The position numbers were made by a program, and so were the translations under genes. Below are positions 1 to 18,066 of a stretch of DNA of 33,979 nt, one piece after another. A model generated the notes under the pieces. The model did no database searches. It was not told the DNA's origin and worked only from the letters and a program-made list of their open reading frames with translations. The DNA comes from a virus. How positions within the stretch are numbered: the first letter of the stretch is position 1; each line of letters opens with the position of its first letter. Location of the stretch: the IMG/VR virus record IMGVR_UViG_3300028374_000036, positions 1-33,979 of that record. One strand, written 5' to 3'.

Positions 1-650
1 TAGGTTGAATCGATTGTTGTCGTTGCTGTGCCCGTCATAGAAACGGAAACGTCTTGTGTTACAGTCGAATCGACGGAAATCGTTGCGGTCCCCGTCATGG
101 AGGTGGTTATTGGCGTAGACGCCTGAGCACCTGTTGTTATAGATGCGGATCCCACCATAGAGACGGATGCTGTGGAAATTTCTTCGCTTTCCACCGAGGT
201 CGTGGCAGACCCCGCCATAGTTACCGTTGCCGAGGCGATGGCTGTTGGGCTGGTTACGGTGGTAGCGGATCCCGTCATAGCCGCCGAGACCCTTAACACT
301 TGGGTGACACCTATATCCGTAATAGCTGCCCCCACCATATCTACAGCACTGAACATTTCCATGACGGGGGTTGAACCCAAGGAGGCCGTTCCTGTTAAAT
401 CAGCGTCTCCTTTGTGATCCAAAAACGCTTCAACTTCCACGAAAGCCAAGCCATACATTGAGATAGCGCAAGGGTCCTCTGGGTTGCGCCCGAGGATCAC
501 TTCCATGAGAGAATCACCTTCCATTGAAACAGAGGCGAGGTGTTCTACCGTAGGCGAAGGGGCAAGGGTACCTGAACCGTTCATCAAGGCCGAAGCTGAC
601 GTGGACCACGTAACATCGTTGATCGTCAACGTACCTGTGCCGAGCATCTG
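1..650 (-). repeat. Tandem coding repeat, about 60-bp period (20-aa units, core SMTGTAT)
   Basis: The core Met codon (read as cat on the plus strand) recurs at 36, 96, 156, 216, 276, 336 and 456, exactly 60 bases apart. At 396 the same phase carries a Leu codon (core LTGTAS). Further diverged units have their Met at 522, 582 and 645. The units nearest the left edge are most alike (SMTGTAT, SMVGSAS, TMAGSAT, AMTGSAT), and those toward the PKD-like domain are more diverged. The array runs off the window. Because the period is an exact multiple of three and the reading frame is preserved, this is a protein repeat, not a CRISPR or iteron array. Confidence 0.88.
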
Positions 651-1943
651 AACTTGATGCTGATCGAGTACTACAATAACGGCACTATCTTTGGCCTTAC
701 GTCCCCGCTGGTCGGTCCCCTTTACCCATACCGTTATCTCAGCGGGTCCAGAAGGCGCTGTGTACGTCACAGAGGCTCCCGACGCATCATCATATACGTT
801 ATCCCCATCAAGGTCCCAGACGTACTCTACGTCGCTACCGTTGGACGAGGCGGTTAGTGTGGTGTCCGTCATTTCGGTGACGGTATAAGGCCCACCTCCA
901 TCTACGGTAAGCCGGGATGTATCGTAGAACTGGCTGGACACATCTTCTTCGACCAGTAGCTCTTTTTTGCGTCCGAGGCGGTCCACTTCGACGTGGTAAG
1001 ATACCGGGTCCTCCGCCCCTTCGAATTTCGGAAAGACCTTGATCGAATTGGAGGTAGGGTGCCCAACGACGGTGTAACGCCCACTGTTAAGGCAGGTTTC
1101 AATCAAGAGGGTTGCGCCTTCCGAAACGGAAGCCAAGGGCTTGTCTGTGGCGTCGTCTTTGAGTACACTGAGGCTACCTAATTCGATATACCCGGATGTA
1201 CTATCGAAACCCGCCATACCCGCGCAATACCCACGAGCATCGTCATAGTAATAGTTGCGGAGGTGCATCCGCATTTCGTCGGTCACATTGTTCAGGAGAT
1301 CCGCGTCCTCACCGAACATAAAGCGGAGGCGGTAAAGTGTATGCGCCGGGCGGATGATCTCGATCAACAACCGGAGGTTCTTGTCGAAACGGAAAACGTC
1401 TTTCGGGAACTTCGCTTGGAGGTCAAAGTCCAGCGAAAACCCAAACTGATCACTAACATCAAGCGGGCTGCCCTCTTGGCGTGCATCTTCGAAGTTCTCA
1501 CGAATGGTGAATTCTTCGGAAGTGAATAGCTCGACGCCTTTGCGAATTGCCGCAGGTGTTGACCCTTCAAAGTAAATTTCGATGACCGCTTTGAGGAAAT
1601 CCCGAAAGCTCTCGTCGTCGAATTCGAGGTCTGGCAACTGTTGGTTCAGGAAAACAAGGTACCCGACCGTCTCCCAGAGAAACTCAGATCGCACCTCATC
1701 AAAAGACACGTCTGTGCCGAGGCGCTCTAGGATGATCGTAATGCGTGCCAACTCCGTAGCCATTGCTTTCATGTAGACCGTGTAATTCGGGCCTACGACG
1801 CTAGACTCATAGTTGGAGGGCAGCAGGTTGATTAAAGCGTTGAGGACCGCTTGACTTCTCGATATGAGAAGTTTCTGGTACCCTTTCCCCTCCTCTACCA
1901 AAGGATACGGGTCTTGCTTTCCGTTGTTAAATCCGTTGGCCAT
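1..1943 (-). CDS. Tail protein I/gp7-like baseplate wedge protein with PKD-like domain and C-terminal 20-aa repeats (3' end outside window)
   Basis: The frame starts at ATG 1943, one base after the stop of the J-like gene, and stays open to base 1, giving at least 647 residues. Residues about 30-200 are helical and acidic (motifs LLPSNYES, LARITIILERLG, GSTPAAIRKGVELF), the style of the P2 I / Mu gp48 tail-protein family. That family connects the wedge to receptor-binding fibres. Position right after a J-like gene supports the assignment. Residues about 345-425 form a PKD/Ig-like domain (YVWDLDGDN near residue 376, then VTYTAPSG and a closing VIVV strand). From about residue 431 the protein becomes a chain of roughly 20-residue units with core SMTGTAT. 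The repeat tail is an addition to an ordinary I protein and may be a fibre-like stalk or adhesin. The stop codon lies outside the window, so total length is unknown. Family assignment is moderately sure; the open frame itself is certain. Confidence 0.8.
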   Translation of the reverse strand, partial: MANGFNNGKQDPYPLVEEGKGYQKLLISRSQAVLNALINLLPSNYESSVVGPNYTVYMKAMATELARITIILERLGTDVSFDEVRSEFLWETVGYLVFLNQQLPDLEFDDESFRDFLKAVIEIYFEGSTPAAIRKGVELFTSEEFTIRENFEDARQEGSPLDVSDQFGFSLDFDLQAKFPKDVFRFDKNLRLLIEIIRPAHTLYRLRFMFGEDADLLNNVTDEMRMHLRNYYYDDARGYCAGMAGFDSTSGYIELGSLSVLKDDATDKPLASVSEGATLLIETCLNSGRYTVVGHPTSNSIKVFPKFEGAEDPVSYHVEVDRLGRKKELLVEEDVSSQFYDTSRLTVDGGGPYTVTEMTDTTLTASSNGSDVEYVWDLDGDNVYDDASGASVTYTAPSGPAEITVWVKGTDQRGRKAKDSAVIVVLDQHQVQMLGTGTLTINDVTWSTSASALMNGSGTLAPSPTVEHLASVSMEGDSLMEVILGRNPEDPCAISMYGLAFVEVEAFLDHKGDADLTGTASLGSTPVMEMFSAVDMVGAAITDIGVTQVLRVSAAMTGSATTVTSPTAIASATVTMAGSATTSVESEEISTASVSMVGSASITTGAQASTPITTSMTGTATISVDSTVTQDVSVSMTGTATTTIDST

Positions 1944-1944
1944 C

Positions 1945-4900
1945 TTAACTCTGCTGGTATGTGATCGTAAAGTTTCCGAGTTCGAGATAGGTTACGTCAG
2001 TGACCATGATAGATTTGGAACCACTATCTCTGTTCACGGCGTAAGTGGCGGCATACGTGTGGTTTTCCGGGGAATCATTGCCATCCACACTGAAGAAGAT
2101 GCGGTTAGCTGTCAGTGTTTTGCGCCGGGCTTCCCGCTCAGTGGCTGTAGCATAGCCCGCAGCCGTCAACGTGGCGTCGTCGCTATACCCGGCGATATTA
2201 AGACCATCGGCCCCCACGACTAATGCTTTGCCTGCCTCATTAAATAGGTCGTTGTACGAGCTTACGAGATCCATCATTTGCGTATCTTCGAAGACCCCGT
2301 GGTGTTGGGAAACATCTCCACCACCGGCCACCGTGGGGTAATTGAGGCCGTCTTTGAGGACGTAAACCTTAGCGTTGCCTTGCTGCTCTAGGAACGTGGC
2401 ATCGTTGTTAACCGGCTCCCGGATAATCAGCGACCCATCGGCAAGAGCCATACGGGCAAAAGGCATAACCACGTATATAACACCGGTCGTGTTTTCGATC
2501 GCTTGCACCACATCCGATTGGTAAACGGGTTCGCCGATCGCTTTGCTGTTGAGCAGTTGACTTACGTTGGTTCGGAGGTCCGCATCCACTTGGGCTCTGG
2601 AGGAACCCGGCTCCAAGACGACGGTCATTTCAAGTTCCACTTCATTTGAAATGGCTTGCTTGACTAAGACGTCCGCCGTGATATGCCGCTGTTTGTTGAT
2701 AGCCCCCTGAACACGATCAAGTAGGTTGTTGATCGTGTACTCCACTTCAAAGTTTTCGTCGTGCTCGTAATCGACGCTCACCTCTTCACCGTTACCGATT
2801 GACCCGGACGGTACCCGGAAAATTTCGAGGGGTGTCGTTTCGTCACCCTCTTGGATCAAGAAATCAGGTGAAGCTGAGTTAGGGCCATCGTATTCTGTGA
2901 GGCGGTCCAAACTAAAGACACGAACACTGATCGGATTAACACCCAAGTTTTCAAGGGGTTCAGGAGCTTCACCCACTAAGACATGATTTTCATCATTGAC
3001 TACGAAAGTGTTCCCGGAGGGCACGCCCCCGCTCTGAGTGATCTCGATGTAATCTTGGGCTTGCGTCGAATAGCCGTCCAGCAACGGGTCTTCGACCCGA
3101 TAAAGTTGGTAGTTTGTACCCTCTTCGAGGACCGCACCTGTGTTGAGTGACGAGATACTTTCCACCCCGAACGCAGGCTGCCGACTAAAGACGTATTGAC
3201 TCGTTTCTTGGAATCGGAAATCACCAGCCACGATGTCATTGGTACTGACGGAAGGCTGTGTTAGGCTTGCATCCAACTTGATTCGGTTGTAATCTAAGAT
3301 CGTGTAATTAGTGAGATCGAAATCTTCACCGGTCGATACGTTACGGAAACCAAACCCTTGGGCCTGTTGTTGGCTAGTAGCTCCGAGTAATTCCGTGATC
3401 GGATTATCGGGAGACAGGCGGGGGTCGTCCGCTACAAAAATGAGGTCGGAGGGGTTGGAGTCCAGAATGAACTGGATGTTCCGAGCCACCCTGAAACGCA
3501 AAGCAAAGGTGTCAGTAACCTGCACTTCTTCAAGACCTTGCAACCATACGTCTACTTTGCCTCCGATATGTTTTTCGCGGAGATCGTCATAGTCTCGCAT
3601 CATAAATTCGCTTTCGGACTTGACCACCTTGGCCCGGAACACACCCTGTTGTTTCAGGGCTGTGGATAGATAGCCACCTTCCGTACCAACATCCACGCTG
3701 GAGTACGCAAGGATAGCACGTTCGGCAAGCCGGGCGTTGCTTTCCCGGTCCCGCCCGAACCGTGTAGCTTCAAGGTTCTCTACTTGCATGGAGGAAGCAC
3801 CGCCAAGTACCCGGTTGATTCCCCCGGCAACTACGTTACCGTCTTCGCCCGCTTCAGTTGCTCGGATGTTGGCTTGGATCTCCCAGCGCTTCTTACGCAA
3901 ATTGTAATACGAATCCTTCACATCGAACGGAAGCACAACACGGGAAGTCGTTGTGAACGATACCGAAGGATTGTCTTGGCTGGATTCGGTCGATATAATC
4001 GTTCCCTCTTCCACCACAAGGTCCGTTGTCGGTTCCGTCGTCGTGTAAAAGATTGCTTGCCCAATCGCAAAACCTGCGCCCCCACGAGCTTTCTGGACAT
4101 TACTCGCCAGTTTTTCAAAGGAGTCGTCAATCAGCGCCTGAACATCGGAATCACGGTCAATACCAAGCGCCGATTTCAGGGCTTGTTTATAGGGGTTTTG
4201 AGCTACCGGATCTGACTCACCATCACCATCGAGGTCGTCAATGGCCAACAAGGTCGAGAAACTCTGGGAGCGACGAATGAACCCGGCGATGAAATGGAGC
4301 CGTTCGGTTTCAGACGCAAACGGTTCAATGAACACATCTCGAACCACCGAGCCGGGAATCGCGCTTACTTGGTTGTCGGTACGGGTGATCGAAGACAGGT
4401 AGTCCCGGACAATATCGTTCTGAGACTTGGACGGAATCTCTTGGAGGCCCGTAGTGATTACCAGTGGCAAGCCCACAAGCTCAGAGCTATATGTACTTTC
4501 GATCTGCCGATTTGTGTCCGGGTCGTAAGCAACTGTAGTGATTACATAAAACAGAGGTTCATCATTCGGGACGTCGGCGAAAAACTCATTGTTAATGACG
4601 CCATCATCTTCAGTCGCCACCCGGTCGTGTACGAAATGGAGGTAGTCACGGGTTTCCACCCCATCAAGGGAGGTCGTGACTTTGATCTCATTGGTCGCCC
4701 GGAGGCTTGTGGTGACGACGCTTTCCCCTACCGTCTTGACCGGGTTGTCATTGAAATCCTCTTCCACCAAGAGAATGCGCAACTGGCCGCCTTCGCTCGT
4801 ATAGAACGTGGAGTCTTCAGCGACACCCGTAAGCTCAGTTTCTTCGAACGCCACCTCGGTGATGAGGTTTTTATTGAGCTTGATGTAACCTTGGGTACCA

Positions 4901-5370
4901 CCTCCGCTATCAATCGCTCCGTATACATTGTAGCCGATGACATTGGGGAGGTCGTTTTGTGCCCACACGATCTCGACTTCATTTGACCGGCGACGTACCC
5001 TCAGTCCCGAAGGAGGCGATACCACCAGATCGAGGTCCGAATCCCGTATCACATTAATCGAAGCTACAGCCGGTGTAGATACACCACCCGTCACATCAAT
5101 GATGCGAATTTGGATCTTGTTGGCCCCGTAGTCCAAGCGTAGCCCTTCCGGGAAGACATTAGGGTTAGGTACCGTAAACGAATCCTGATCGAACGAGACG
5201 AGGTTTGAGTCGCTCTTGAACGGTTCGTTGTTGACCTTCACCTGAACATCAACAATATCCGAAGACAACTCACCCGTGAGCACTTGATCACGTACTGACG
5301 TTACCAAGTCTAGGGTCGTGGTTTTTGTCTGTCCGTTAGGCGTTACAAATTTTGGGGGTTCTACAGGCAT
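1945..5370 (-). CDS. Baseplate wedge protein J-like (T4 gp6 / P2 J / Mu gp47 family) with N-terminal Ig/FN3-like domains
   Basis: At 1141 residues this is much longer than a typical J protein of about 300-650. The J-like core is around residues 490-650, where EAGEDGNVVAGGINRV is followed by a conserved-looking Asn/Ala strand, GRDRESNARLAERAI and a Gly-rich turn. That layout is characteristic of J-like proteins, which dimerise to form the wedge ring around the hub. Ahead of it, residues about 30-110 look Ig/cadherin-like and about 115-310 FN3-like (SPPSGLRVRR, GYNVYG, FYVITTVAYD). A loop DLDGDGESD near residue 380 resembles a calcium-binding thrombospondin/dockerin loop. The start ATG has a GA-rich ribosome site (AGAGGATT). 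The gene sits between the gp25-like and I-like genes, the canonical W-J-I order. The last 250 or so residues are extra and unrecognised. Confidence 0.85.
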   Translation of the reverse strand: MPVEPPKFVTPNGQTKTTTLDLVTSVRDQVLTGELSSDIVDVQVKVNNEPFKSDSNLVSFDQDSFTVPNPNVFPEGLRLDYGANKIQIRIIDVTGGVSTPAVASINVIRDSDLDLVVSPPSGLRVRRRSNEVEIVWAQNDLPNVIGYNVYGAIDSGGGTQGYIKLNKNLITEVAFEETELTGVAEDSTFYTSEGGQLRILLVEEDFNDNPVKTVGESVVTTSLRATNEIKVTTSLDGVETRDYLHFVHDRVATEDDGVINNEFFADVPNDEPLFYVITTVAYDPDTNRQIESTYSSELVGLPLVITTGLQEIPSKSQNDIVRDYLSSITRTDNQVSAIPGSVVRDVFIEPFASETERLHFIAGFIRRSQSFSTLLAIDDLDGDGESDPVAQNPYKQALKSALGIDRDSDVQALIDDSFEKLASNVQKARGGAGFAIGQAIFYTTTEPTTDLVVEEGTIISTESSQDNPSVSFTTTSRVVLPFDVKDSYYNLRKKRWEIQANIRATEAGEDGNVVAGGINRVLGGASSMQVENLEATRFGRDRESNARLAERAILAYSSVDVGTEGGYLSTALKQQGVFRAKVVKSESEFMMRDYDDLREKHIGGKVDVWLQGLEEVQVTDTFALRFRVARNIQFILDSNPSDLIFVADDPRLSPDNPITELLGATSQQQAQGFGFRNVSTGEDFDLTNYTILDYNRIKLDASLTQPSVSTNDIVAGDFRFQETSQYVFSRQPAFGVESISSLNTGAVLEEGTNYQLYRVEDPLLDGYSTQAQDYIEITQSGGVPSGNTFVVNDENHVLVGEAPEPLENLGVNPISVRVFSLDRLTEYDGPNSASPDFLIQEGDETTPLEIFRVPSGSIGNGEEVSVDYEHDENFEVEYTINNLLDRVQGAINKQRHITADVLVKQAISNEVELEMTVVLEPGSSRAQVDADLRTNVSQLLNSKAIGEPVYQSDVVQAIENTTGVIYVVMPFARMALADGSLIIREPVNNDATFLEQQGNAKVYVLKDGLNYPTVAGGGDVSQHHGVFEDTQMMDLVSSYNDLFNEAGKALVVGADGLNIAGYSDDATLTAAGYATATEREARRKTLTANRIFFSVDGNDSPENHTYAATYAVNRDSGSKSIMVTDVTYLELGNFTITYQQS

Positions 5371-5385
5371 AATCCTCTACCACCT

Positions 5386-6468
5386 TTACTTTACCCGCTG
5401 AAAGCCTTGCGCGAAACTAGCATCGCCCACAAGCAGGGTATCCGTGATCTGTTCGAGTTCACCCGACTGGCTTTCCAACACGATAGATACATCGAATACC
5501 GTGGCGTCGTATTTGTCTTGCTTCACTTCGATTGAAACAATCCGCTGCAGCATCTCCTTTCGCGACACCGGCTGGTAACGCGATTGCTGCTCTTTGATTT
5601 GCTTGTACCGTTCGAGCGCATCGGAAACCTCTGTGACCAACTGTGTCTCTACATACTGGCCGCCGCCTACGATCTTGGTGCCGATCAACTCACTAATAGA
5701 CGTGCCGTACCAGCGGTGAAAAAGGTTGGACCCTTTCACCGTGAATACGATCTTTTCTACCTCCTGCAAAAGGAGGCGTTGGTTTTCCACAAAGATAGGA
5801 TCGCCTTTCCGGTCGTGCCGGAAATCGTTCTCTATCCCAAGACCCATACACCGGCGACAGACACCCCGGACGGTGTGGTACGACACCTCAAAAATATCGT
5901 CATCGGTACGCAAGGGTTCGTGGAAACGAATCACCCGAGCGTGGGGGTCCATGTTGTTTTTATCCTTGATGATCTCCCAACCGGGCACTATAATACGGCC
6001 ACGGTAATACCTGAGTGCCGAGAAACCTAACGTGGCGTGAGCATTCCCACCCTCCATCTTGAGTGACGACTGTGCGCCACCCTTGTTATGCTCGATCGTA
6101 AGGCGGCCATTCTTTACCGACGCTGTAATTCCCGTGGCTTGCTCGTTGATGGTCCGGGCAAGGTAAGCAGCTTTGATTTTGCGACCCTTGGGGAGGGTGA
6201 TAGTTTGGGTTGACTGACCATCCACACTGAAAGCCAAGGTATCGTTATCACCTGTTTCGATCTCAAAAGGCTCCGCTTTCAGACCTGTAACTTCGATGGA
6301 AGAAGCCAGACCATCCCGAGGAACTTCAATGCGGTTCCACAGGACCTTTATTTGTTGGCTGGAGGGGTAACGCACGGTACGGAGTGTTTCCCGATCGTCT
6401 TCGATAGACAACCACTCTTCGACCACGTGGTGCGGGCATTTGTGCTTTAGGCGGAGATCCTTGGACAT
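5386..6468 (-). CDS. Baseplate wedge protein with C-terminal gp25/W-like domain and internal CxxCxGxG motif
   Basis: I chose ATG 6468 (MSKDLRLKHK), one base after the upstream stop, over an earlier in-frame start that would overlap the previous gene by about 70 bases. This gives 360 residues. The C-terminal part, with FHRWYGTSISELIG, VTEVSDALERYK, MLQRIVSIEVKQ and a closing strand, has the helix-strand pattern of gp25/W-like wedge proteins. Its place directly before the J-like gene fits. The middle (about residues 85-165: LAFSVDG, ITLPKGRKI, LARTINEQ, ATLGF) resembles a beta module often seen in phage and flagellar structural proteins. Two putative metal sites stand out: CPHH at residues 11-14 and CRRCMGLG with cysteines 204 and 207, which is CxxCxGxG as in DnaJ zinc fingers. 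The gp25 assignment is from motif style and synteny, so moderate. Confidence 0.7.
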   Translation of the reverse strand: MSKDLRLKHKCPHHVVEEWLSIEDDRETLRTVRYPSSQQIKVLWNRIEVPRDGLASSIEVTGLKAEPFEIETGDNDTLAFSVDGQSTQTITLPKGRKIKAAYLARTINEQATGITASVKNGRLTIEHNKGGAQSSLKMEGGNAHATLGFSALRYYRGRIIVPGWEIIKDKNNMDPHARVIRFHEPLRTDDDIFEVSYHTVRGVCRRCMGLGIENDFRHDRKGDPIFVENQRLLLQEVEKIVFTVKGSNLFHRWYGTSISELIGTKIVGGGQYVETQLVTEVSDALERYKQIKEQQSRYQPVSRKEMLQRIVSIEVKQDKYDATVFDVSIVLESQSGELEQITDTLLVGDASFAQGFQRVK

Positions 6469-6469
6469 A

Positions 6470-7087
6470 TCAGCGGTCCGTGGCCGAGTGAAAATCTTCG
6501 CTGGTGATGAAAAAGTCGATATCTTTGCGGAGGTCCTCAAGCGTCTCCGCGCCGGTACTACGCTTCACCAACAAAACCACCTCTTCGATGTACTGATCCG
6601 AAAGGTCGATTGTCCTCTTGATGCGGAATTCAAGGTCTTCCAATTGACGCTTGATCTTAGGTGTTATCCAATCCTTTACGCCCGCCACATAATTGCCGGG
6701 CACGGTATCGTCGTAATGCCTCGAACCTTCACTGTAATTACCCTCCGAAGGTTTACCTCCAGCGTAAGGCGCAGCATCGTCTAAGTTGAACTCGCCCTTG
6801 GTGATATAAATCCAATCACCACGGCTTCGAATCTGAAGCTCTGTTAAAGATCCACCATAATATTCGAAGGCTAGAGCGTACTTTGCCAGTTGACTATTGA
6901 GCGGTTGGATGTTATAATCAATTCGACGCCCCTCCTCATCGAATTCATATTCGATCCACCCCAGCCGCTCAATCTCACTTTTAAGGTACGTTATACGGGG
7001 ATCCACGTCCTGCAGGGACGCTTCCGCGTAATCAGCCAACAGTTCGAACTGCGACCGTTTGAATGTACCTAGAAAATCGTAAGCCAT
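6470..7087 (-). CDS. Baseplate-module protein of unknown function (205 aa)
   Basis: I do not recognise the family. The N-terminal third is helical and acidic/aromatic (FLGTFKRSQFELLADYAEA, EIERLGWIEYEFDEEGRR). A Gly/Tyr/Asp-rich loop region follows (about residues 90-130), then a charged helical C-terminus (PKIKRQLEDLEFRIKRTIDL). No signal peptide or membrane segment is visible. It sits between the 724-residue virion protein and the gp25-like gene, one base from the latter, so it probably belongs to the wedge or baseplate periphery. The start has an AGGGTAAAGGT ribosome site, unusually close to the ATG, and follows a 78-base gap, one of the largest in the window. Confidence 0.72.
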   Translation of the reverse strand: MAYDFLGTFKRSQFELLADYAEASLQDVDPRITYLKSEIERLGWIEYEFDEEGRRIDYNIQPLNSQLAKYALAFEYYGGSLTELQIRSRGDWIYITKGEFNLDDAAPYAGGKPSEGNYSEGSRHYDDTVPGNYVAGVKDWITPKIKRQLEDLEFRIKRTIDLSDQYIEEVVLLVKRSTGAETLEDLRKDIDFFITSEDFHSATDR

Positions 7088-7165: not shown

Positions 7166-9340
7166 TCACAGGCCAAAAATGAACCGGATGGCATTTTCAG
7201 AGGCTTCGACATCGCCGCGTCCAGCGCCACCGAACGCAAGGACCACACCCGCAGAGAAATCATCTGGCGAAGTATCGGGAGGCGATTCAGCTTCCATGAA
7301 CTCCCGCGCTAAGTACGGAGTGCCTCCCACATTCGGCGGGATGAACAACACCGACACCGAAAAGTCAAGAGCGTCCAGACTTGCGTAAAACGAAATGATC
7401 GTGTCAAGGAAATCCACAATATCGTTGAGGATTCCAAGCCTTGCCCGCAAGCCGTCAATGGTGTTCTCAATCGCGGCGTTTATGTCGGCGAACACGTTTT
7501 CAAACGACTTCATCATACGAAATAGGCGGTCAAGCAACTGGTCGCCTTCCGGGATGAGATCTTCAAAGAGACGGAGTGATTGCCAATTAGGCGGCTGCCC
7601 AAGAACCACGTATTTATCTACCGTCTGAATCAGCAGATGTACCTTGGTCCTGACTGTATCGTCTGTGATCAAATCTTTGGACGTGTTGAAACCGTCTGAG
7701 GTCAAGAGGTCAACGATGGAGCTTTCCGCATCCTCGTAAAAACTCTTCACCATCTCGTACAGGCTTTCGTTTTGTGTCAAGGTGGGTAAGATCTCGTCTA
7801 CCCGTTCAAGGGCTACCTTGTCCACCCAGATCCTGAATTGTTGGTGGGGAGACATACCAAAAACACCATCAAATAACTCCCGAGCACCCGCAAAGGGGTC
7901 CTTTTCTAGTGTATCCGAAGACGTGATTGATCCGACAACAGATACGTAACGCCGCGAGGTGGCATAATCTTCGATAGCCGCAGCGTCTTCGAACAGACCG
8001 CCTTCGAGAATTTCGAAATTGATATCGCCTCGGTCCTCTTGGATAAGTGTGTCGCTGTACGCAGTCACGAATTCGGGTTCACGAGCACCCTCGGCTTCGG
8101 CGTCAAGAATACGTGTAGGTATTCCGGGTTCGATGCTACTACTACCAATGAAAAGGTTCGAATCTGAATGATCGGTAGCGTCTGTATCAAAACGCAATAG
8201 ATAAGCGGCCCGATAAACATTTAGGAGGGCCGTAGGCATGTCGAAACTGGTATCCACATCCGGCAGGTGCCCGAACACAGGCATGGAGGGCTGTGACCCT
8301 AACCACTCTTTACCGTTGCGCACCAAGGTATATACTGTTTCCCCGTTTGGCCCTGTGACGTAGCTTAAACCTGTATCCGAAGGCACAGACCGGATGCGAT
8401 AGTAATACCCGTTTTCGATCCCCTTTTCCACGTCCCGCATCACATACGAATAACTGCCCGCAATGAAATTCTGACTAACGTCATCGTCACCCAACTTGAA
8501 AAAAGGGTCGTTTGGGAAAGCGGGTTCCCACACATAAATCGGTTCGCCCAACCGATTAAGCACCGGCTCCTTGATCTGTGAGTCTTGGCCGTCCTCTTTG
8601 CGTTTCTTTTGGATCGGATTCTCTTGTACTTTCCGAGTTTTATCGCGAGTTAGGAGGGTGCCTTCACGGGATTTGGAGCGTTCAAGGTAAAATTTATTGC
8701 TCGCAAAAATATCGTAAAAAAGGCTCTGGGAAAACTTTGGCTCTTCCCATGAAAAGACCAACGACGTAAGGTCGTCATCCTCTTCGAACAGGTTGATGAT
8801 ACTTCCCGCTGTATCACCATCAGCATCAGCGGGTTCGACAGTTACGTTTATAGGCGGCGGATATTGGACGTGTAAATCTGGCTGCCGGAACAGGTTTGCG
8901 AGGGACATTACCTGCCGCAAAAAGTCAGCAACCGAATCCTTATTGACGAACAAAAAGAATGCTCCAAGGTGTCCGTCCGGTCCGATCTGGGGACGGTTGG
9001 GATCTTCAACGTCAAACAGGCTCTGTAAAAACAGTTGCTTGAACTTGGGATACCCGCCCTTATAGGCTTGCACTTCTTCCAGCGTAGTGGGGATCAAGAA
9101 CAACCCGAAGGCCCCTGTTTCCCGCAGGTTATCGAGGATGGTCTGAATTTCAGCCAGTAGCAATGAAATGGATGCACTGACCGGGTTCGGAAGAGCGACC
9201 AAAAATGCTTTCAGGACTTCCAAAACGGTGACTGCCACGTCCCCAACGGCGACAAGCGCATCGACTACCGTCTGAAGTTCCTCAAGGTTCTCAGCGCCCG
9301 GCAGGACGTCTGATAAGTCAAATGTCTTCCACTCAGCCAT
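7166..9340 (-). CDS. Large virion/baseplate structural protein (724 aa), family not recognised
   Basis: The gene starts at an ATG directly abutting the stop of the preceding small gene (TAAATG). The first 90 or so residues are long amphipathic and hydrophobic helices (VTVLEVLKAFLVALPNPVSA, LLLAEIQTILDNL). Residues about 165-370 look like FN3/Ig-type beta domains (INVTVEPADADGD, SLVFSWEEPKF, NGYYYRIRSVPSDTG). The region from about 480 to 640 is helical again, and the C-terminus returns to short strands ending GAGRGDVEASENAIRFIFGL. The mixture of helical ends and Ig-like modules, and its position in the baseplate block, suggest a peripheral baseplate or tail-associated virion protein. I see no catalytic motif. 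Confidence 0.75.
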   Translation of the reverse strand: MAEWKTFDLSDVLPGAENLEELQTVVDALVAVGDVAVTVLEVLKAFLVALPNPVSASISLLLAEIQTILDNLRETGAFGLFLIPTTLEEVQAYKGGYPKFKQLFLQSLFDVEDPNRPQIGPDGHLGAFFLFVNKDSVADFLRQVMSLANLFRQPDLHVQYPPPINVTVEPADADGDTAGSIINLFEEDDDLTSLVFSWEEPKFSQSLFYDIFASNKFYLERSKSREGTLLTRDKTRKVQENPIQKKRKEDGQDSQIKEPVLNRLGEPIYVWEPAFPNDPFFKLGDDDVSQNFIAGSYSYVMRDVEKGIENGYYYRIRSVPSDTGLSYVTGPNGETVYTLVRNGKEWLGSQPSMPVFGHLPDVDTSFDMPTALLNVYRAAYLLRFDTDATDHSDSNLFIGSSSIEPGIPTRILDAEAEGAREPEFVTAYSDTLIQEDRGDINFEILEGGLFEDAAAIEDYATSRRYVSVVGSITSSDTLEKDPFAGARELFDGVFGMSPHQQFRIWVDKVALERVDEILPTLTQNESLYEMVKSFYEDAESSIVDLLTSDGFNTSKDLITDDTVRTKVHLLIQTVDKYVVLGQPPNWQSLRLFEDLIPEGDQLLDRLFRMMKSFENVFADINAAIENTIDGLRARLGILNDIVDFLDTIISFYASLDALDFSVSVLFIPPNVGGTPYLAREFMEAESPPDTSPDDFSAGVVLAFGGAGRGDVEASENAIRFIFGL

Positions 9341-17081: not shown

Positions 17082-17390
17082 CTATACTAGATTTTCAAGG
17101 TGGTCTTTAAGCTCACCCACATTGGCGATGATGGTTTCGTTCACGTCACCATCCACTAGCACCACAAAGGTCGGGATGCTGCGGACGCTGAACTGTGCAG
17201 CCAACGCACCTTCATCATCCACGTTGACCTTGTAAAAAGCCACGTCGTCACCAAAATCTTCCGACAAGGCTTCGAGCTTAGGCAAGGCGACCTTACAAGG
17301 TCCGCACCATTCGGCCCAGAAATCGATCACTACGATTCCTTCACTGTTGCCTACCATTTCTTCGTAATCAGATTGTGTCAATTCTTTCAT
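17082..17390 (-). CDS. trxA: Thioredoxin
   Basis: A 102-residue single-domain thioredoxin, close to the usual length of about 105. The redox-active WCGPC is at residues 28-32 after a VVIDFWAE strand, and the cis-proline is in SIPTF (Pro73). It is expected to reduce disulfides in the cytoplasm using the host thioredoxin reductase. In phages thioredoxins may also support ribonucleotide reductase or act as a polymerase processivity factor. The start overlaps the preceding gene by four bases (ATGA), so it is translationally coupled. There is no signal peptide. A complete, apparently active thioredoxin within tail genes, away from any nucleotide-metabolism gene in the window, is notable. The family assignment is secure. 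Confidence 0.96.
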   Translation of the reverse strand: MKELTQSDYEEMVGNSEGIVVIDFWAEWCGPCKVALPKLEALSEDFGDDVAFYKVNVDDEGALAAQFSVRSIPTFVVLVDGDVNETIIANVGELKDHLENLV

Positions 17391-17632
17391 AGGATCATTC
17401 CTTTGTCTAGGGTCTGGGGAAGGTCCGCTCGGTTTTTAAGTCCGAGGGTACGGCCATCCGGGGTTTCAAAGCATACGTGGGAAGCACGTCTAACGACTTC
17501 CAAATAAGGGTATTCCAAATGGTTAAGTACCGCGCCCCGCAAAACATCCTCTTGCCCTTTTTCGAGGTATTCATCGGGTAGATCAACACAGTCGTCAATC
17601 GTGAACGTCACCAAAGCTCGCGTCTGTTTCAT
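17387..17632 (-). CDS. Small protein of unknown function (81 aa)
   Basis: I chose ATG 17632 (MKQTRALVTFTIDD) because it overlaps the preceding SLOG gene's stop by four bases (ATGA). An upstream in-frame start at 17725 would overlap it by almost 100 bases and gives a low-quality leader. The protein is mixed alpha/beta with three short strands (ALVTFTIDD, YLEVVRRA, HVCFETPDG) and one helix (EDVLRGAVLNHLE). It lies between the SLOG and thioredoxin genes with four-base overlaps on both sides, so the three are one translational unit. I do not recognise the family. Confidence 0.7.
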   Translation of the reverse strand: MKQTRALVTFTIDDCVDLPDEYLEKGQEDVLRGAVLNHLEYPYLEVVRRASHVCFETPDGRTLGLKNRADLPQTLDKGMIL

Positions 17633-18066
17633 AAATCGTCTTCCGTGTAAAGGTTGGCCCGCCTCTTGATCCGACGCCGAGCCTTTTTGAAAGTGTCCAT
17701 AGTCCCGTTTGACCCTTGATAGCAAAAGGCCAAAAGCACATCCGCATCATCGGCAATCAAAGTGTTGCGCTCGAAATAGTTACTGTAGGCGAAAGGCCGA
17801 TACCGTGGGTCGTCTTTATCCAGCCAGTGCGCCGGTGGGTGTTCGATATAACCCATATCGTGCTGTTCGGCGTAATCTTTTGCCCAACCATCAACACCCA
17901 GAGGCTGACCGCCTGAGACGATCGTATCTACCGTAGGGTATTTTTCCAGATAAGACGTGATCGTGTCAAATACAAAATCACGATCGGGCCATTCTCGCGA
18001 ACCTACGACGCCCATAACTTTGGGTTCGGGAGCCGTGAAAAGATCATCAAAACTGATCTCGCTCAT
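17629..18066 (-). CDS. SLOG-superfamily protein (YspA / cpYpsA-related, DUF2493-like)
   Basis: The 145 residues carry the family's signatures in order: the first strand and glycine turn VMGVVGSREW (GSR at 22-24), the second strand and loop IVSGGQPLGVDGWA (SGG 51-53, GVD 57-59), then RNTLIADDADVLLAF (from Arg100), and GSNGTMDTFKKA (118-129). These form a Rossmann-like pocket in SLOG proteins. That superfamily binds or processes nucleotide-derived ligands and includes members in conflict systems. A phage copy could sense or cleave a nucleotide signal, but its ligand is not evident. It overlaps its neighbours by four bases on each side. A 15-residue acidic leader precedes the domain. The superfamily call is strong; the biochemical role is open. 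Confidence 0.86.
   Translation of the reverse strand: MSEISFDDLFTAPEPKVMGVVGSREWPDRDFVFDTITSYLEKYPTVDTIVSGGQPLGVDGWAKDYAEQHDMGYIEHPPAHWLDKDDPRYRPFAYSNYFERNTLIADDADVLLAFCYQGSNGTMDTFKKARRRIKRRANLYTEDDL

Follow-up and report, generated by a model that had tools for sequence, protein, structure and literature searches.

At the end of a viral contig of 33,979 bases (the window, which is the entire IMG/VR contig), a minus-strand gene encodes what we read, with a probability of about 0.6, as a baseplate-wedge protein with a receptor-binding extension, the extension being built on a fixed-length β-strand stalk that is a version of a repeat module linked to Gp80 genes. The genetic linkage between 20-residue repeats and Gp80 is directly countable; a physical partnership between the two we infer.

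Architecture of the repeat-bearing protein

The features discussed here are as follows, with coordinates in the window unless another record is named.

3..1943, minus strand: repeat-bearing open reading frame, 647 residues within the window, truncated by the contig end
L002:6001-8679: full-length repeat protein, 892 residues
939..1943, minus strand: N-terminal baseplate-wedge domain, residues 1 to about 335, remotely Mu gp48/phrog_1160-like
666..914, minus strand: PKD-like domain, residues about 344-426, based on PF00801 in the aligned homologue P0006
3..665, minus strand: putative repeat stalk, about 11 units of about 20 residues, residues 427-647
3-482, minus strand: strict 20-residue register, residues about 488-647
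36-38, 96-98, 156-158, 216-218, 276-278, 336-338 and 456-458, minus strand: core Met codons
396-398, minus strand: core Leu codon, the one exception among eight exact 60-base steps
1945..5370, minus strand: baseplate J-like protein, 1141 residues, PF04865 (E 2.7e-19), just upstream of the repeat open reading frame
5386..6540, minus strand: baseplate-like protein, phrog_43 baseplate wedge subunit (2.5e-4), just upstream of J

The periodic part of the open reading frame comprises its last 220 residues, which are Ser/Thr/Ala-rich and of low-complexity composition. Measured against codon shuffles, the 60-nucleotide lag gave z = 5.2 (residues 427-647) to 6.3 (residues 489-647), and the observed value was reached by 0 of 5000 shuffles; the 60-bp period is thus real and coding, as originally predicted. 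The top lags were 60 or 120 in the DNA and 20 or 40 in the amino acid sequence, with the 20-residue lag (z 6.7) marking an exact 20-residue period. A core Met had been described at exact 60-base spacing over eight units; the spacing holds, and the residue is Met in seven units and Leu in one. The older, diverged units reported upstream were recovered as well, these outer units being looser, with a spacing of 20-22 residues, and more divergent. Pfam, PHROG and PDB searches with the window repeats returned nothing useful, and a tblastn search of the repeat region against phages gave no match, probably on account of the low-complexity filter.

That a wedge/I-like protein carries the repeats was borne out, through remote similarity. 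The wedge domain matches phage G gp189 by tblastn (4e-10), and the phage G homologue L083 matches phrog_1160 at 2.3e-13; the window protein (P0001/P0002) gave no direct PF10076 or phrog_1160 profile match, its hhalign alignment to the PVJ1 Gp48 protein was weak, and PF10076 matched 5 of 23 members weakly (best 0.048). The putative wedge identity is reached remotely, through these intermediates and through the position adjoining J. For the PKD-like domain, PF00801 scores 23.8 bits against a cut-off of 23.5 (E 4.4e-5) in P0006, which is 69% identical to the window protein where aligned; the window copy itself lies below the PF00801 threshold. The tail gene block also holds a thioredoxin-domain protein (17082-17390, minus strand, phrog_22, 5e-11) and a GTP-binding-domain match (17629-18066, minus strand, phrog_289, 7.9e-15).

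The gene runs to its end in two longer contigs, of 115,647 and 41,425 bp, that are 100% identical to the window over its first 12 kb; the protein it encodes has 892 residues. In both of these identical contigs, the array ends two or three residues beyond base 1 (...TTTIDST/YTMDPTSIAGLVYWIDPSDKDTIYQ...); its apparent run off the window was an accident of the contig end. The repeats are followed by about 245 residues with the motif DGxPVxxIxDxSGN, which also occurs in proteins of Vibrio, Pseudomonas and Rhizobium phages. A phrog_10356 match at 2.7e-4 is the sole profile support for this C-terminal head, and a Pfam search of the head gave no LamG match; the motif and the phrog_10356 match point to a probable ConA/LamG-like domain. 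The next gene encodes a 130-residue Gp80 (PF23140, 9.2e-42) scoring 142.8 bits against a family cut-off of 27, and matches PDB 8jou chain a at E 4.5e-23. The same phage has a second Gp80 gene (G001:C1:12842-13207; L089:3334-3717, minus strand), which adjoins a β-propeller-like open reading frame and not 20-residue repeats.

Age of the array and copy number among homologues

Unit similarity is about 15-35% in the outer units, climbs to about 47% and is level across the last five, so that the rise toward the contig edge noted in the original prediction describes the outer units and then flattens. Nor are the units exact repeats, as had been stated: the last five full units share 42-52% pairwise DNA identity, and TRF detected no array in the repeat region even at score 30. 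Among same-amino-acid codon pairs in the last six units, the codon is identical in 25 of 84, where codon usage by itself would give 22.4, and exact repeats in window positions 1-420 reach 10 bp at most. Synonymous sites between units are saturated, which indicates an old array maintained by selection on the protein; this saturation and the absence of long exact repeats rule out the recent expansion at the edge that had been proposed. With a longest exact repeat of only 10 bp, homologous recombination between units is unlikely at this locus, and the array is identical in three assemblies (the window, G001 and G002); both counts weigh against the proposal that the array changes by recombination between its units. 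Length variability, the remaining element of that proposal, was not seen within the species (n = 3) and is present between homologues.

An alignment search with the wedge domain found homologues in 69 viral contigs of up to 497 kb. Unit counts among the closest relatives are about 11 plus a head in the window phage, about 7 in L023, about 6 in L022, and none in L021/L020 and L024. The L022 and L023 proteins carry 20-residue repeats (z 4.4 and 5.0), terminate in them without a head, and have a Gp80 gene downstream. Two homologues terminate after the PKD-like domain with zero units, and in the sisters L004/L005, whose wedge protein is 68-69% identical, PKD is the last domain of the protein and the next gene abuts. 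In L002, the genes that adjoin in L004/L005 are separated by about 1.85 kb (7276-9131); this block consists of the repeats, the head and the Gp80 gene (PF23140), its flanking genes are 49% identical (E 1e-72), and block-bearing and block-less versions both come from metagenome 3300035034. Gp80 lies downstream of every repeat-bearing version, with two open reading frames intervening in L023, and was absent from the entire contigs (96, 35 and 125 kb) of versions without repeats; the L024 and L021 contigs hold neither repeats nor Gp80. The repeats, the head and the downstream Gp80 gene are one gain/loss cassette, and we count its presence and absence as shown. The original prediction had staked itself against two outcomes: an array halting at once past the edge, which is what the longer contigs hold, and homologues without varied copy number, which is not what we found. 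The array differs between species, and probably not now through unit-to-unit recombination.

An array of another kind lies on a related contig of 376,674 bp (L094:8772-10502, G014), directly after a Gp80 gene and followed by two Laminin_G domains. Its nine 'VASSLSGDAALSAxL...' units share up to 85% DNA identity and include an exact repeat at least 60 bp long, and this array could vary in length by recombination.

Linkage of 20-residue repeats to Gp80 genes

Our viral test set comprised 43 non-redundant Gp80 loci chosen without reference to the window. The gene right after Gp80 had its best lag at exactly 20 residues in 24/41 of these loci (20 with z>=4), the gene before Gp80 in 0/41, and background genes in 33/543. 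An independent set of 55 Gp80 loci, drawn from bacterial genomes across many phyla, gave a best lag of 20 in 19/52 genes after Gp80 and 2/54 before it. In isolate phages, the gene after Gp80 peaked at lag 20 in 8/8 cases, some weakly. We count the gene linkage as shown; about half of the Gp80 loci have no clear 20-residue array, and the order in the window phage, with the repeats before Gp80, is reversed relative to most Gp80 loci. Fusion to a wedge domain recurs in Lietuvens and PVJ1, both of them cultured myophages, where 20-residue repeats are joined to PF10076 Mu gp48 domains (3e-13 and 1.6e-21). At marine-type Gp80 loci (L095-L174; e.g. L117:4389-5279), the repeat proteins carry a further array at their C-terminal end, made up of Trp repeats of 10-11 residues (NTWTPVSADS).

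We compared 20-column periodic profiles column by column with composition removed. The window repeats matched the marine Gp80-linked repeats of L117 (z 4.5, p 0.0004), L092, a small repeat protein from a related jumbo phage (z 4.5, p 0.0002), and Lietuvens (z 3.8); some class members do not match. An HMM of the marine repeats did not score the window repeats above shuffles, and hhalign of window against marine repeats gave a 10-column match only. There being no profile-HMM bridge, we claim a shared pattern and gene linkage, with common descent unproven. The class pattern reads roughly [AS]-x-hydrophobic-x-G-x-[AS]-x-hydrophobic, and the window repeats would belong by this pattern. Searching the PDB with the repeat proteins of BcepMigl and Itty13 turned up no solved partner, and the marine repeat profile gave weak PDB matches, the best at 1.2e-4 to a '60 kDa protein' (9lc0). 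Modular repeat fibres are already known. The literature that we could search had nothing on Gp80-linked 20-residue repeats; within that literature and the sequence libraries used, the repeat class and its Gp80 link seem to be undescribed, the window containing one, more elaborate, instance.

A model for the stalk and competing explanations

Taken together, a model for the 892-residue protein can be proposed. The N-terminal domain, remotely Mu gp48/P2 gpI-like, would dock on the baseplate beside J, the PKD-like domain would act as a spacer, and about 11 β-strand-rich repeats of twenty residues would form an extended stalk, presenting a C-terminal ConA/LamG-type head that may bind a host-surface ligand, probably a sugar. 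Because the repeats fall by pattern into the class that accompanies Gp80, they most likely hold Gp80 subunits or are capped by them. AF2 models of the whole protein (5 sequences, pLDDT 36.6) and of a Gp80-linked repeat protein (26 sequences, pLDDT 37.8) were both of low confidence, and both placed two strands in each 20-residue unit. That the stalk is part of a fibre or adhesin, as first suggested, is plausible.

The nearest described systems each resemble a part of this architecture. Mu gp48/P2 gpI-type wedge proteins (PF10076, phrog_1160) share the gene position beside J and the remote N-terminal domain; the window protein differs in its additional C-terminal PKD domain, repeats and head. 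Sporosarcina phage Lietuvens ORF27 and Psychrobacillus phage PVJ1 gene 58 combine a Gp48-type wedge with 20-residue repeats and are encoded beside J and Gp80, as in the window phage, but their repeats are N-terminal, a ConA-like head is absent, and Gp80 precedes the gene. The Gp80 fibre of Ralstonia phage GP4 (gp80, PF23140, PDB 8jou) belongs to the same family as the gene downstream in the window phage; GP4 is a podophage, whereas the Gp80 of the window phage adjoins a contractile-tail-type baseplate module. In Alishewanella phage LSH1, gp34-36 form a co-inherited, dispensable fibre module, gp35 of which matches the GP4 fibril chain 8JOU_g, with repetitive sequence suspected by the authors alongside it, and the working model has a GP4-like fibril protein linking the virion to an adhesin (PMC13243795). 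This model is consistent with Gp80 as a connector, though it cites chain g and our Gp80 match is to chain a; no 20-residue period is reported for the LSH1 module, which we compare by its description (PMC13243795). The neck fibre of Anabaena phage A-1(L) is a bead chain of repeated subunits (PMC10966104), similar in being a chain-like fibre and different in that whole subunits recur instead of repeats within one chain. The A-1(L) genome (neck-fibre genes at L185:8299-10624) gave no Gp80-profile match, which removes it as a relative; it appears to be a separate solution.

Other readings of the repeats were weighed against the fixed-length stalk. A recombination-driven adhesin whose stalk length shifts within the population would accord with the differing copy number between species, and the closely similar units and long exact repeat of the L094 array show where such behavior is possible; at the window locus, the divergence of the units, the 10-bp longest repeat, the synonymous saturation and the identity of the array in three assemblies largely refute it, and we regard it as very improbable there. 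Alternatively, the repeats may do no more than space the head from the wedge, as a flexible Ser/Thr/Ala-rich stretch that has no specific partner, the Gp80 link reflecting common fibre-cassette genes. Low-complexity composition, low AF2 confidence and the missing HMM bridge are all compatible with such a spacer. We consider it unlikely, since many unrelated phages share a period of exactly 20 that is specific to the gene after Gp80, PVJ1 and Lietuvens have similar repeats fused to a Gp48-type wedge protein, and the L022 and L023 proteins end in repeats, with no head to space out.

If Gp80 has the repeats as its partner, they may act as a template that sets the number of Gp80 subunits on a bead-like fibre, one per repeat or repeat pair. 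The strict unit length, the gene adjacency, the presence of Gp80 with repeats and its absence without them would fit, as would the GP4 fibril chain (8JOU_g) that joins an adhesin to the tail collar (PMC13243795); no repeat protein was found in 8jou, where Gp80 accounts for 10 chains, and we rate this counting role as decidedly improbable. More broadly, and tentatively, a widespread two-part fibre system, as yet without a name, is possible in which Gp80 assembles on β-repeats of exactly 20 residues, either in a neighboring protein or fused to a wedge, and the repeat number sets the composition or length of the fibre; the window protein would then show it in a form where the repeats join a wedge domain to a lectin-like head. 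Our preferred reading remains the wedge protein with a fixed-length, Gp80-linked stalk.

Phages and prophages commonly carry Gp80-type genes, which are often annotated merely as 'head protein' or 'hypothetical'; a neighbor with a strict 20-residue period makes a likely working partner for Gp80 and suggests a role that can be tested. Repeats of 20 residues adjoin Gp80 in podophages and myophages as well as in prophages from many phyla, and are fused to wedge proteins in at least two arrangements. Such a partnership would explain a class of proteins for which neither Pfam nor PHROG has a repeat family and which is poorly modelled by structure predictors.
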